DNA of 64,000 bases. Origin: Chryseobacterium camelliae (GTDB lineage Bacteria; Bacteroidota; Bacteroidia; Flavobacteriales; Weeksellaceae). The notes below the pieces were generated by a model. The model did no database searches. It was not told the origin of the DNA and worked only from the letters and a program-made list of their open reading frames with translations. The position numbers were made by a program, and so were the translations under genes. The DNA lies in NCBI RefSeq assembly GCF_030818575.1, contig NZ_JAUTAL010000001.1, forward strand, positions 3,348,001-3,412,000, given 5' to 3'. This document shows positions 6,578 through 53,537 of the stretch, one piece after another (the first letter of the stretch is position 1; every line of letters begins with the position of its first letter).

Positions 6578-6644
6578 TCCTAAATTTTAAATACACTTTA
6601 GGAATGGCTGTTATTGTACAATAGAATGCACAGCAAAAGTCATC

Positions 6645-6724
6645 TACTTTTCCCTACGCTGGTATGATCCAGATCAGGTTCAAAGGGTAAAATCTCAGTC
6701 TGTTGGTACAGACACCCCTAAAGT
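6645..6724 (-). ncRNA. TPP riboswitch (thi box)
   Basis: On the minus strand the conserved core reads CTGAGA (pyrimidine-sensor side) and later ACCTGATCTGGATCATACC followed by AGCGTAGGGAA, the hallmark of the thi box. A closing P1 helix can form between ACTTT at the 5' end (near 6724) and AAAGT at the 3' end (near 6645). It sits about 70 nt upstream of the thiS start and so controls the whole thiamine operon. Confidence 0.96.
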
Positions 6725-6730
6725 TGGAAG

Positions 6731-49950: not shown

Positions 49951-49980
49951 TAAAAGAAAAGGAGACTAATATGTCTCCTT
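49951..49980 (-). terminator. terminator of the rtcB-prfH operon
   Basis: AAGGAGAC/GTCTCCTT stem (49973-49980 with 49959-49966) followed by TTTTCTTTT on the minus strand. The TAG stop of the TPR gene (49968-49966) lies at the edge of the stem. Confidence 0.88.
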
Positions 49981-50487
49981 CACGTCTTTATGGGTCTTTT
50001 TCTTTTTTTTAGGTATTTTGCCTTTTACAAACTTTTGCCTTTCATTAAGAAAATCCGTCATGGTTTTATGGTAGCTGAATTTTTTTGCTTCCTTAATATA
50101 CTGCAAAGCTTTCTTATAATTTTCTTTCTTTTCGTATAGGAAGGACTGCCTGTACAGCAGGTCTGCTTTTGCAATTCCCTTTATTTTCAGGGCATATGCA
50201 ATCAGCTTCTCAGCCTCATCATAATCTTCATTATCGATGAGGCATGAGATATAATACTTAGGGATATTGACATTGCTGACATTGCTCTGCATTGCCATTT
50301 CAAAATATGATTTTGCTGTTTCATAGTCCCTCAGGCTTTCAGCATAGATCCTTCCCATGAGGCATAAGCTGTCTGCATCTTCCGGATCATAAGAAAGCGC
50401 ATAATTCAGAGCTTCCAGACAATCCGGCAGGCAGTAAGGGTAATTATCCAGCGCTTCAAAGTAATACTTACTTTTAGTTAAGGTCAT
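49966..50487 (-). CDS. TPR-repeat protein at the end of the RNA-repair operon
   Basis: 173 residues of tetratricopeptide-like helical repeats, for example ALNYALSYDPEDADSLCLMG, in parts DPEDADSLCLMG, YETAKSYFEMA and NYKKALQYIKEA. A lysine-rich C-terminus follows (KGKIPKKKKKTHKD), suited to binding nucleic acid or a ribosome. Its ATG overlaps the end of prfH by 14 nt, so it is translationally coupled. No catalytic motif. It probably acts as an adaptor to rRNA or the RtcB/PrfH machinery; that is inference. Confidence 0.8.
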   Translation of the reverse strand: MTLTKSKYYFEALDNYPYCLPDCLEALNYALSYDPEDADSLCLMGRIYAESLRDYETAKSYFEMAMQSNVSNVNIPKYYISCLIDNEDYDEAEKLIAYALKIKGIAKADLLYRQSFLYEKKENYKKALQYIKEAKKFSYHKTMTDFLNERQKFVKGKIPKKKKKTHKDVKETY

Positions 50488-51178
50488 TGTGCTCGTTTTT
50501 TAATTGTTTTTTTAAAGCATACCTCTGCTTTTTGAAAGACAGGTCCCGATGGTGACTCTTAAAATCAGTGCCGGTAAAAGTCCGTACAGGATTTCCCCTT
50601 TCAACCTGAAGATGATTGTTCCAGGTATCCTGCATCCTTTTTTCCAGTTGCCTGATGTGAAGTTCCATTAGTTTTTCCCGTAATCTCATCATTGCCAGTT
50701 TCTTATTTTCCAGTTGAGAACGGGAATCCTGTGCAAAAACACTGATTCCGGCCGGAATGTGGGTAGCCCGTACCGCAGTACTGACTTTGTTGACATTCTG
50801 CCCGCCGCTTCCCTGGCTTCTTGTAGCCTGGAACCTGATGTCTTTTTCACTGAAAGTTATTTTTTGTATTCCTTCCAGCTCAAATATACCTATGTACCAG
50901 TTGCTTCTTTTGTGCAGCTTGCGGAACGTGCTTTTCCCGGTCCAGCAGATGCTTCCCGTCCAGCTTTTCAGAAATCCGGTCAAATGTTCTTCTTTTGCTT
51001 TCAGAAGCAAGGTGACGGATTTGAGGGTCATATTTTCATCCCCTTTCTCCCGGTGAATGATTTCGTAATCTATCGTATTGTTTTTAGCCTCCTCAAGGAA
51101 TGCCTTCAATACCCTGGCAACTACCCACTGGCATTCTAAAGGACCTCTTCCCGAGGTGATCTGTATTAATTTTTCCAT
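50474..51178 (-). CDS. prfH: release-factor homologue PrfH
   Basis: 234 residues from the ATG at 51178 (MEKLIQITSGRGP). The catalytic GGQ lies at 125-127 (SQGSGGQNVNK) and acts as peptidyl-tRNA hydrolase in class I release factors. The protein lacks the codon-recognition domain and stop-codon motifs of RF1/RF2, which marks PrfH. Published work on PrfH with RtcB in E. coli shows rescue of ribosomes cut in the 16S decoding centre, followed by RtcB re-ligation. It starts 1 nt after the nucleotidyltransferase stop (TAA-C-ATG). Confidence 0.9.
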   Translation of the reverse strand: MEKLIQITSGRGPLECQWVVARVLKAFLEEAKNNTIDYEIIHREKGDENMTLKSVTLLLKAKEEHLTGFLKSWTGSICWTGKSTFRKLHKRSNWYIGIFELEGIQKITFSEKDIRFQATRSQGSGGQNVNKVSTAVRATHIPAGISVFAQDSRSQLENKKLAMMRLREKLMELHIRQLEKRMQDTWNNHLQVERGNPVRTFTGTDFKSHHRDLSFKKQRYALKKQLKNEHNDLN

Positions 51179-51179
51179 G

Positions 51180-51725
51180 TTATTCCGGTATTTTACTGAG
51201 TTCAGGATGGCCGACGGGATCAATGTTATGATCCAGCAATCTTTTCGCCGCCATCACAGCCCAGCATTTATCGCTTGAATGGATATTTCTGTAAAAGGAA
51301 AGCAGAATCTGCGGTTCAGGAATGGTAAAGCCGTTTACTTCAATGGTATCCAGATCACTACGTTCAAAGAAATCTATCGTGATCCTGTGGGTCTTCCCGG
51401 TTTCCGTTTCTACGGTCTTTTCATACCGCCTGAAGTTTTCTTCGCTAGGCAGGTGATCATACCGTGTCCAGACTTTGGAAAACCCTTTTTGTTGAAGCAG
51501 CATAACGACTTCCGCTACATTTTCCTTGGTTACAAAAATATCAATGTCTTTATGGTCATGGGCGTGCTTGTATTCCATATGCCCGGTTTCCGACATGAAA
51601 TGCCAGGCCCAGCCGCCCGATATAATGACCTTATGTTTTAAGTGTTCTAAAATTTCCAGGCCATACTGAATTCTATATTCCGGCCATAGCTCTCCATATC
51701 TTTTGGTATTATGTGGTGCTCCCAT
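51180..51725 (-). CDS. nucleotidyltransferase-fold protein in the rtcB-prfH operon
   Basis: 181 residues with the nucleotidyltransferase-superfamily signature: ISGGWAWHF (GG at 37-38), then HDHKDIDIF with the metal-binding pair D60 and D62, and a third Asp in RITIDFF (D118). The layout resembles aminoglycoside nucleotidyltransferases (PF10706-like) rather than tRNA CCA-adding enzymes. All three acidic residues are present, so it is probably active. It lies 110 nt after rtcB and 1 nt before prfH. End modification of cleaved RNA would fit; antibiotic modification is the alternative. Confidence 0.75.
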   Translation of the reverse strand: MGAPHNTKRYGELWPEYRIQYGLEILEHLKHKVIISGGWAWHFMSETGHMEYKHAHDHKDIDIFVTKENVAEVVMLLQQKGFSKVWTRYDHLPSEENFRRYEKTVETETGKTHRITIDFFERSDLDTIEVNGFTIPEPQILLSFYRNIHSSDKCWAVMAAKRLLDHNIDPVGHPELSKIPE

Positions 51726-51798
51726 TTTCGTTGATTTTTTTAATTTAATTGTTGATTGTAAGATATAATGCCATCATGTAACTGTAACTTATGAAAAA

Positions 51799-51833
51799 CA
51801 TTACTCATTACTCATTGCTCATTACTCATTACA
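51799..51833. repeat. five tandem copies of a 7-bp unit (CATTACT)
   Basis: Five consecutive heptamers: CATTACT, CATTACT, CATTGCT, CATTACT, CATTACA. They lie between the end of rtcB (51836) and the nucleotidyltransferase gene. A hypervariable-length microsatellite is possible. Confidence 0.85.
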
Positions 51834-51835
51834 TA

Positions 51836-53227
51836 TTATTTATCCATCCTCACCATCCTCGGCTGAAAAGTTCCCAGGATATCCACCAGTTCGCTCTGTG
51901 CATTCATCACTTCATGGATATCTTTGTAGGCCATTGGTGCTTCTTCTGCATTCCCGCCCATCAGTGTGACATTTTTGAGTTGCAGCTCTTTTTTAATGTC
52001 ATGCTGGGTAAAGCGGCTCCTGCATTCTCCTCTTGAGAAAGCTCTTCCTGCTCCGTGAGATGCCGAATTCAGCGCTTCAGGATTTCCTTTGCCCCTGACA
52101 ATGAATCCTTTTGCCGTCATAGAGCCTGGAATTATGCCCAGTTCACCGTCATGAGCCGGCGTTGCACCTTTGCGGTGGACAATCACTTCTTTGCCGTTAT
52201 GGATCTCTTTCCAAGCAAAATTGTGGTGGTTCTCAATCCTGGCCTTTACCCGGCCGCCTACTGCTTTTACCAGCCTCCTGTGGATATCGTCATGGCAAGC
52301 CGAAGCATAATCTCCCGCGAGGCTCATAGCTGTCCAGTATTCAAGTCCCAGATGGGTATTCAGGCCCAGCCAGGCAAACTGCTGCGCTTCTTTGGGAAGG
52401 GGGCACTGTTCTGCCGCTACCCTGGAATAATACTGAGCGATTTCGGCTCCCAGGCCTCGTGAGCCACTGTGCGAAAGGATGCCCAGGTACCTGCCTTTGG
52501 GAAGACCGATCTGTTCATCTTCTCCGGTAATTTCCACTTCACCGAATTCCACGAAGTGATTTCCGCCACCGGAAGTGCCCATCTGTTTTACGGCTTTTCC
52601 TTTCAGCCTTCGCAATATGGGAATGAGATCAAACGTATCCTGTTCAAAAATCTCATGGTCCACATGCGATTTATGGGTTTCATACATCCCGAATTTGGTA
52701 TGCTCTGCCAGTGCTTTTTCATATTTTTCTTTGGCACCGTCTAGATAGGAAACCGGTGTATCCAAAATACTGAGGCTCATCCTGCATCCGATGTCCATTC
52801 CGACTCCGTAAGGGATGACTGCGTTTTCTACAGCCAGCACTCCGCCAATCGGCAGTCCGTATCCACTGTGGGCATCCGGCATTAGTGCACCCTGTACCGA
52901 TATGGGCAATTTCAGTGCGGTATACAGCTGGTTTTTAGCTTCGTCTGAGATATTGTTCCCGAAAATCTGAAATGAGGCACGCTGCCTGTTCATCATTCTT
53001 TTTTCCGTTTTCCGCGAAGAAAGCAGAGCTTCAGCAATCTGGCCAAATGTAAGGTCCTGTTCAAAATGTTCCGGGTTCAGCAGAATATCTTTCAGGACTG
53101 ATTTTACGTGATGGATATTTTTAGTGGCAAAATTCCGTTTCATGACTTCCAAGGCTATATTGATGCTCTGGTTGTTCGGATAGCCTAATTTTAATATGTC
53201 TTTTCCTTTAAGTTTTAAATTTCCCAT
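51836..53227 (-). CDS. rtcB: RNA-splicing ligase RtcB (RtcB2-like, paired with PrfH)
   Basis: GTP-dependent RNA ligase that joins 2',3'-cyclic phosphate or 3'-phosphate ends to 5'-OH ends. The 463 residues have the metal-site motif DIGCRM with D145 and C148, NHFVEFG, LSHSGSRG and the GMP-accepting His, H391 in SASHGAGRAFSR. Pairing with prfH two genes downstream marks it as an RtcB2-type ribosome-repair ligase rather than a tRNA-splicing one. No archease gene is near. The start at 53227 (MGNLKLKGKD) fits; a short repeat-rich region separates it from a leader-like ORF. Confidence 0.95.
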   Translation of the reverse strand: MGNLKLKGKDILKLGYPNNQSINIALEVMKRNFATKNIHHVKSVLKDILLNPEHFEQDLTFGQIAEALLSSRKTEKRMMNRQRASFQIFGNNISDEAKNQLYTALKLPISVQGALMPDAHSGYGLPIGGVLAVENAVIPYGVGMDIGCRMSLSILDTPVSYLDGAKEKYEKALAEHTKFGMYETHKSHVDHEIFEQDTFDLIPILRRLKGKAVKQMGTSGGGNHFVEFGEVEITGEDEQIGLPKGRYLGILSHSGSRGLGAEIAQYYSRVAAEQCPLPKEAQQFAWLGLNTHLGLEYWTAMSLAGDYASACHDDIHRRLVKAVGGRVKARIENHHNFAWKEIHNGKEVIVHRKGATPAHDGELGIIPGSMTAKGFIVRGKGNPEALNSASHGAGRAFSRGECRSRFTQHDIKKELQLKNVTLMGGNAEEAPMAYKDIHEVMNAQSELVDILGTFQPRMVRMDK

Positions 53228-53376: not shown

Positions 53377-53462
53377 TTTTCTAGCCCCTATTGCAGCGGA
53401 TACCCCGCAGCGAGCCTGAAAGGCGAGCGAGGAGTAGCAGCGGAAAGCGGGAAAAAGCTCCT
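53377..53462. repeat. structured intergenic repeat element
   Basis: GC-rich island in AT-rich DNA. It contains the paired direct repeats TTGCAGCGGATAC (53390) and TAGCAGCGGAAAGC (53435), a GCCT-GAA-AGGC hairpin between them and CCCGC (from 53404) able to pair with GCGGG near 53447. From memory this resembles a dispersed element seen in other Chryseobacterium and Flavobacterium intergenic regions, but I cannot confirm copy number here. Confidence 0.5.
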
Positions 53463-53504: not shown

Positions 53505-53537
53505 ATAAAAAACCCGGAACCAGTGGCTCCGGGAGGT
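53505..53537 (-). terminator. terminator after the leader-like small ORF
   Basis: CCCGGAGCCACTGGTTCCGGG forms a strong GC-rich stem on the minus strand (about 53514-53534) and is followed by TTTTTTATT. Confidence 0.85.

Follow-up and report, generated by a model that had tools for sequence, protein, structure and literature searches.

An rtcB-prfH operon of Chryseobacterium camelliae with an optional nucleotidyltransferase and a TPR-repeat protein

The window analysed here is a 64,000-nucleotide stretch of Chryseobacterium camelliae DNA (RefSeq assembly GCF_030818575.1, contig NZ_JAUTAL010000001.1, positions 3,348,001 to 3,412,000). It contains a compact minus-strand unit of four genes, which encode an RtcB-type RNA ligase, a minimal Pol-beta-type nucleotidyltransferase (NTase), peptide chain release factor H (PrfH) and a TPR-repeat protein. 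In window coordinates the unit is laid out as follows.

53227-51836, minus strand: rtcB, PrfH-linked RtcB-type RNA ligase, 463 aa
51725-51180, minus strand: NTase gene, minimal Pol-beta-type nucleotidyltransferase, 181 aa, optional accessory
51179, minus strand: NTase/prfH junction of 1 nt, where relatives carry a zinc-ribbon gene (∼195 aa) and/or a 206-aa gene
51178 (ATG) to 50474 (stop), minus strand: prfH, peptide chain release factor H, 234 aa
50487-49966, minus strand: TPR gene, TPR-repeat protein, 173 aa, with a lysine-rich C-terminus and its start inside the end of prfH
49981-49958, minus strand: terminator-like hairpin closing the unit and spanning the TPR stop codon, 9 pairs, with the T-rich tail TCTTTTAACA

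The initial annotation had described this unit as four minus-strand genes ending in a terminator, and the coordinates agree with it, including the spacing of 110 nt between rtcB and the NTase gene, 1 nt between the NTase gene and prfH, and an overlap of 14 nt between prfH and the TPR gene. For prfH, the ATG at 51178 was used as the start instead of the TTG at 51223 given in the list of open reading frames (ORFs). Terminator-like hairpins number 8 in the region compared with 4.6 ± 1.9 in shuffled sequences, and the hairpin is weak evidence when taken alone. The four genes are under purifying selection, judged against the two closest relatives, with dN/dS ratios of 0.02–0.03 for rtcB, 0.12–0.15 for the NTase gene, 0.07–0.11 for prfH and 0.06 for the TPR gene. 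Since the arrangement is met again in other genomes of the genus and of Flavobacteriaceae and all four ratios lie between 0.02 and 0.15, it is not attributable to chance. As had been noted before, no archease is encoded within the operon. PADLOC gave no match for any of the four operon proteins.

The release factor scores 212.6 bits against TIGR03072, above the curated cut-off of 166.65, and has a GGQ motif at position 125, GP in place of GG at position 12, and no domain 1, its 234 residues aligning to the RF2 profile from position 119. PrfH has been described by these features (PMC1586002). The protein also matches PDB chain 9mor_A, which is named peptide chain release factor H, with E = 1e-99, as well as 7sa4_8, another chain named PrfH; a literature search on PDB entries 9MOR and 9MQ4 found nothing relevant. 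By homology, the window PrfH would free the nascent peptide from ribosomes that have been cut in the decoding centre.

The ligase is clearly an RtcB, scoring 273.4 bits against PF01139 (cut-off 27) and retaining the active-site motifs, including HRKGA, when aligned to solved RtcB structures. However, it falls short of the RtcB2 family TIGR03073 (144.3 bits versus a cut-off of 271.8) and of PRK09588 (177.7 bits versus 407), and has an N-terminal stretch of ∼90 residues ahead of the part matched by RtcB2-type models. The name RtcB2 should thus be used with care for this ligase. The window RtcB probably acts in the same setting as the TIGR03073 ligases, yet lies outside that curated family. A second RtcB gene (471 aa) is located elsewhere in the source genome (contig 1, 579000-591000, locus L339), near an RlaP NTase on the same strand (PF10127, 229.5 bits) and, on the other strand, a gene for a WYL-domain protein. 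It is probably a separate RNA-repair locus, and no archease was found among the three ORFs there that were scanned with Pfam (RlaP, WYL and RtcB), a wider archease search not having been made. Each RtcB gene of this genome therefore has a Pol-beta-type NTase gene in its vicinity, of a different family in each case.

Linkage of the NTase and TPR genes to rtcB-prfH was quantified in overlapping samples of 148 genomes from the genus, 148 from the family, 395 from the order and 395 from the phylum. PrfH is encoded in 143 of the 148 genus genomes, three times in two pieces or split over contigs. The NTase is matched in 104 of these 143, including one 26-residue remnant and one broken copy, and in none of the five genomes that lack prfH. 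All 104 matches adjoin prfH, at distances (measured between matched stretches, not ORF ends) that lie within 20 nt in 86 genomes, at 61 nt in one, at 573–636 nt in 16 and at 1,204 nt in one. The same is true of the 8 NTase matches in the phylum sample, where PrfH exceeds its cut-off in 28 genomes, and of the 31 in the order sample, one of which was placed by its coordinates; the 11 found in the family sample are all within the genus. No unlinked bacterial NTase was found in the genus, phylum or order genomes, for which neighbouring genes were checked, and there was no match among 72,556 plasmids at E ≤ 1e-3. In each of 80 named-genome loci, the NTase gene is preceded by rtcB and followed by prfH. 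These loci, mostly from Chryseobacterium, are the best 80 of 153 confirmed relatives, and the 73 weaker ones may include unlinked or non-Bacteroidota copies.

The TPR gene is a nearly constant member. It was matched in 141 of the 148 genus genomes, 140 of them among the 143 that have prfH, although several copies contain internal stop codons. These figures for presence cover all 148 genomes, whereas the distance from prfH was assessed only in the distinct loci scored for overlap. There, a TPR start that overlaps the prfH stop by precisely 14 nt is found in 128 of 131 loci whose PrfH has 68% identity or more, and in 6 of the 19 whose PrfH is less similar. The recurrence of this overlap suggests translational coupling of the two genes. 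The TPR gene was seen in 75 of the best 80 named loci, and one of the other five ends inside prfH. The window protein matches TPR families, including PF14559 at 31.5 bits. The claim that the NTase and TPR proteins belong with RtcB-PrfH is thus well supported by the scoring of prfH neighbourhoods across Bacteroidota that had been proposed as its check. The association had been expected to look accidental if relatives carried rtcB-prfH without these genes and if the genes occurred elsewhere unlinked. The former is the case for the NTase in 39 of the 143 prfH-bearing genomes, but nothing of the latter kind was seen in the bacterial neighbourhoods examined.

The variation is concentrated between rtcB and prfH. 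The core genes rtcB, prfH and TPR hardly vary within the genus, and the operon lies mostly at one chromosomal place, but the rtcB-prfH slot may hold nothing, the NTase gene, the zinc-ribbon gene (∼195 aa, overlapping prfH), the 206-aa gene or combinations of these. The fullest arrangement, at one named locus, is rtcB-NTase-206aa-Zn-prfH-TPR. Over 137 distinct PrfH sequences, the minimum number of presence/absence changes is at least 25 for the NTase, 16 for the zinc-ribbon gene (22 rows) and 4 for the 206-aa gene (4 rows), counts that may be inflated by error in a quick tree made from one short protein. Many of the 137 sequences were obtained via the NTase, so that the 99/137 for the NTase is not a frequency, and a few are from Flavobacteriaceae. 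Slots with zinc-ribbon or 206-aa genes in other species were noted at loci L129, L130, L135, L142, L145, L168-L182, L206 and L215; the zinc-ribbon gene is shortened at L130, and L129 has a 482-nt gap that lacks such an ORF. In one genome (G142, contig 1, locus L167) the whole unit has decayed, with rtcB truncated, prfH reduced to 31 residues and the TPR gene partial, and this genome seems to have lost the RtcB-PrfH system.

The association itself is already known, and is quantified here. An rtcB-like gene upstream of prfH was described by Baranov et al. in 2006 (PMC1586002), and Burroughs and Aravind in 2019 listed TPR, Pol-beta NTase, zinc-ribbon and charged-helix proteins as accessories of RFH-RtcB operons (PMC6514570, section 2.4), with the NTase not specifically related to RlaP. 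They suggested that the accessory genes serve in scaffolding and in the repair of RNAs that lose nucleotides (PMC6514570). The window operon conforms to that description, with rtcB close upstream of prfH on the same strand and with accessory TPR and NTase genes. Its NTase and TPR proteins correspond to items 1 and 2 of the list, the zinc-ribbon protein of relatives corresponds to item 3, and the 206-aa protein might be the charged-helix protein of item 4. Section 2.4 and the related passages of that paper contain no counts, phage relatives of the NTase or analysis of the slot. The rtcB2-prfH operon of E. coli ATCC 25922, which protects that strain from colicin E3 (Maviza et al. 2022, PMC9223846), is similar in joining rtcB2 and prfH in one operon that encodes a PrfH-type factor and an RtcB ligase. 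Unlike that operon, the one in the window encodes a ligase below the TIGR03073 cut-off with an additional N-terminal stretch, as well as the NTase and TPR proteins. Moreover, whereas the operon has been called sporadic (PMC9223846, PMC6514570), prfH is near-universal in this genus. Its presence in 143 of 148 genomes, mostly at one chromosomal place, makes the operon look more like a housekeeping function than a sporadic counter-weapon.

The NTase has the motifs GGW, DID and TID at positions 37, 60 and 116, and residues G37, G38, W39, D60, D62 and D118 are invariant in the 35 sequences compared. The window protein scores 24.4 bits against PF10706 (aminoglycoside-2''-adenylyltransferase; gathering score 21), while a relative from Flavobacteriaceae scores 16.5 bits, below the cut-off. 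Against the named Lnu enzymes of NCBIfam the best score is 19.4 bits where 300 are needed. The MntA family of NCBIfam gave no match at E ≤ 1. RlaP, a Pol-beta NTase that accompanies RNA ligases in bacterial as well as jumbo-phage genomes (PMC7824862), is similar in context, and one is located near the second RtcB of the source genome; unlike it, the window NTase has no match to PF10127 at E ≤ 1, and identification as RlaP was rejected. In a predicted model (mean pLDDT 83.8), the nearest solved folds are those of ANT(2'')-Ia and LnuA (Z 11.2, 13–15% identity), with which the MenT/AbiEii-type enzymes MenT1 and MenT3 (Z ∼10, 8–14% identity over the aligned part) count as tied, and the best Foldseek match is LnuA (E = 1.3e-4). 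The modelled NTase resembles these enzymes in its minimal fold, and differs from them in its low identity and in its RNA-repair context.

Relatives of the NTase were also found in very large phages, and its catalytic motifs are kept from bacteria to phages. The window protein matches the 735-kb phage LR756501.1 with 41% identity over 97% of its length (E = 1e-33), and LR756503.1 has the same match at the same place. Alignment-based scans of IMG/VR gave relatives in 13 contigs of 23–619 kb, and a rescan returned the same 13; the first viral scan, with the window NTase as the single query, had confirmed none. The 14 viral records reduce to 12 distinct ones because two pairs of contigs have look-alike flanks. 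RtcB is encoded in 9 of the 14 records (8 of the 12 distinct), and in four of these eight distinct records it is within 8 kb of the NTase on the same strand, compared with 0.86 expected at random (P = 0.004). The 8-kb flank was fixed before looking, and the random-placement test ignores contig ends and treats each look-alike pair as one record. The distances are ∼0.24 kb (L287), 2 kb (L282), 4 kb (L284) and 7 kb (L288), and at L287 an ORF for a Cys-rich protein of 90 residues lies between the NTase and RtcB genes. PrfH over its cut-off was found in none of the 14 records, although fragments cannot prove its absence.

The viral origin of these sequences is indicated by the IMG/VR listing of the contigs and by the deposition of LR756501.1, which is unannotated, as an uncultured phage. 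Among 20 flank proteins, of which two are RtcBs, 11 match PHROG families, including endolysin and helicase, and 9 match none; capsid and terminase genes were not looked for. In an NTase tree, which is unrooted and has long branches that were flagged, the bacterial copies form one shallow group (support 91/89, not starred), and diversity is much greater among the phage copies. Capture of the NTase from a phage is a suggestion only. A link between this NTase and phages was not found in the literature searched, including parts of PMC7824862 and PMC9503650, although the supplement of PMC6514570 may list phage members. Small Cys-rich proteins with a pattern that appears by eye to be shared are encoded near the phage NTase at L282:9223-9483, L287:8500-8772 and L288:9403-10014, and two of these three contigs have in common a phrog_2470 membrane protein. 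The gene at L280:7477-7992, on a viral contig of 208 kb, immediately precedes the NTase gene and overlaps its start by 4 nt; the product matches phrog_335, annotated as a phosphatase, and looks macro-domain-like in our own reading.

We propose, with a probability of roughly 0.55, that these four genes make up the version found in Bacteroidota of the known operon by which RtcB and PrfH rescue and repair ribosomes, and that the optional NTase in it serves RtcB-type RNA repair, most likely at RNA 3' ends. The initial annotation had similarly suggested end processing and docking as roles for the two accessory proteins. By homology to the E. coli proteins, PrfH would enter the A site of ribosomes with a cut 16S decoding centre and release the peptide, and RtcB would reseal the break between the 2',3'-cyclic phosphate and the 5'-OH. 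The TPR protein, the near-constant third member that is probably coupled translationally to prfH, may act as a docking or scaffold protein. The NTase, an accessory that appears to come and go in the rtcB-prfH slot, would most likely add nucleotides to the 3' end of a damaged RNA or of a tRNA. Such an addition is the activity of MenT-type enzymes, which have a similar fold, and has been proposed for RlaP. Peptide release and sealing have been demonstrated by others for the E. coli proteins (PMC6514570, PMC9223846), and the cut rRNA may be degraded further after the first cut (discussion of PMC9223846), which would call for end processing. That phage relatives of the NTase occur where PrfH was not detected, some of them near RtcB, suggests that its partner is RtcB-type RNA repair rather than peptide release.

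Several observations weigh against this proposal. The ends that RtcB seals are a 5'-OH and either a 3'-phosphate or a cyclic phosphate (PMC9223846), and an added nucleotide that ends in a 3'-OH is unsuited to it. An NTase that leaves such an end cannot simply feed RtcB; its substrates would have to be tRNA or ends of no use to RtcB, or another step would have to intervene. Conceivable targets are tRNA 3' ends, trimmed ends destined for another ligase, a protein or a small molecule, with RNA 3' ends in the lead. The nearest named relatives and folds of the NTase are antibiotic-modifying enzymes, with MenT tied to them within one Z unit, and no activity of the NTase or the TPR protein was met with in the literature searched. 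The NTase has no match in the 39 prfH-bearing genus genomes, and two of its 104 matches are the remnant and the broken copy. Since the ligase scores below the RtcB2 cut-off, it may act on a different substrate from E. coli RtcB2. Among the phages, RtcB is 26 to ∼212 kb from the NTase in four of the eight distinct RtcB-bearing records and was not detected in four of the 12 distinct records, of which those of 23 and 61 kb are short and those of 188 and 308 kb are not. In three of the 14 records a release factor is weakly matched, under the PrfH cut-off, and one of these matches has two in-frame TGA codons.

The strongest alternative, which we nevertheless consider unlikely, is that the NTase modifies a small molecule, inactivating an antibiotic or toxin directed at the ribosome, in which case the operon would combine drug removal with ribosome repair. 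The PF10706 score of the window protein, the weak Lnu matches and the predicted proximity to ANT(2'')-Ia and LnuA all favour this, and both drug classes concerned act on ribosomes. However, the protein is far below every Lnu cut-off listed and its Flavobacteriaceae relative is under that of PF10706, its linkage to rtcB-prfH is strict, no match was found among the plasmids at E ≤ 1e-3, and occurrence in large phages is not what is expected of a drug-resistance enzyme. It is somewhat less likely still that a protein is what the NTase modifies with a nucleotide, for instance to turn on or off RtcB, PrfH or a toxin that attacks the cell. Minimal Pol-beta enzymes with protein-modifying roles do exist, as in the MntA-type antitoxins, and a gene coupling that lacks a fixed RNA target would fit, but the window NTase has no MntA match in NCBIfam at E ≤ 1. 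It is improbable that the NTase is a mobile or phage-derived passenger, inserted time and again between rtcB and prfH with no part in repair, as its many presence/absence changes and the shallow bacterial clade beside deep phage branches might suggest, because its dN/dS is low, its motifs are kept, it occupies one fixed slot at one place per genome and it was not found elsewhere in the genomes searched.

Returning to a role in RtcB-type repair, we tentatively raise a broader possibility, which we hold with distinctly less confidence, that these NTases are a distinct class of RtcB partners with their deepest diversity in very large phages, where they would be used against RNA-cutting defences of the host, and that Bacteroidota captured one into their ribosome-repair operon. 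That cells repair ribosomes cleaved at the decoding centre is a recent finding, made in E. coli (PMC9223846). Should the NTase prove a true partner of RtcB, the current view of RtcB repair, as the joining of a cyclic phosphate to a 5'-OH to which no nucleotides are added, would leave something out, and bacteria and large phages would have a ribosome- or tRNA-repair tool in common. If the phage-rich class is also real, then, taken with RlaP near the other RtcB gene of this genome, RtcB repair would regularly need an NTase step that is absent from current mechanisms. The linkage in the bacteria examined and the spread in large phages make the role of the NTase testable and the protein worth following.

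The surroundings of the operon contain several minor features. The genes flanking the unit in the window are, we take it from their sequence, those for methylmalonyl-CoA mutase and MeaB. Among the 80 named loci (74 outside L263 and L265-L269), the mutase was found in 64, MeaB in 63, both in 54 and none of the genes sought in seven, within the flank available at each locus. In the spacer upstream of rtcB, a Flavo-1 RNA-like match on the plus strand (53379-53458) scores 38 bits versus a gathering score of 42; below that score and on the strand opposite to the operon, it was not counted as part of the system. A further terminator-like hairpin on the minus strand (53513-53533; 9 pairs, 7 of them G-C) precedes the rtcB start by 286 nt; no gene clearly ends there, and it is possibly an attenuator or belongs to a short transcript. 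Elsewhere in the window, a TPP riboswitch was identified on the minus strand at 6634-6729 with a score of 82 bits.

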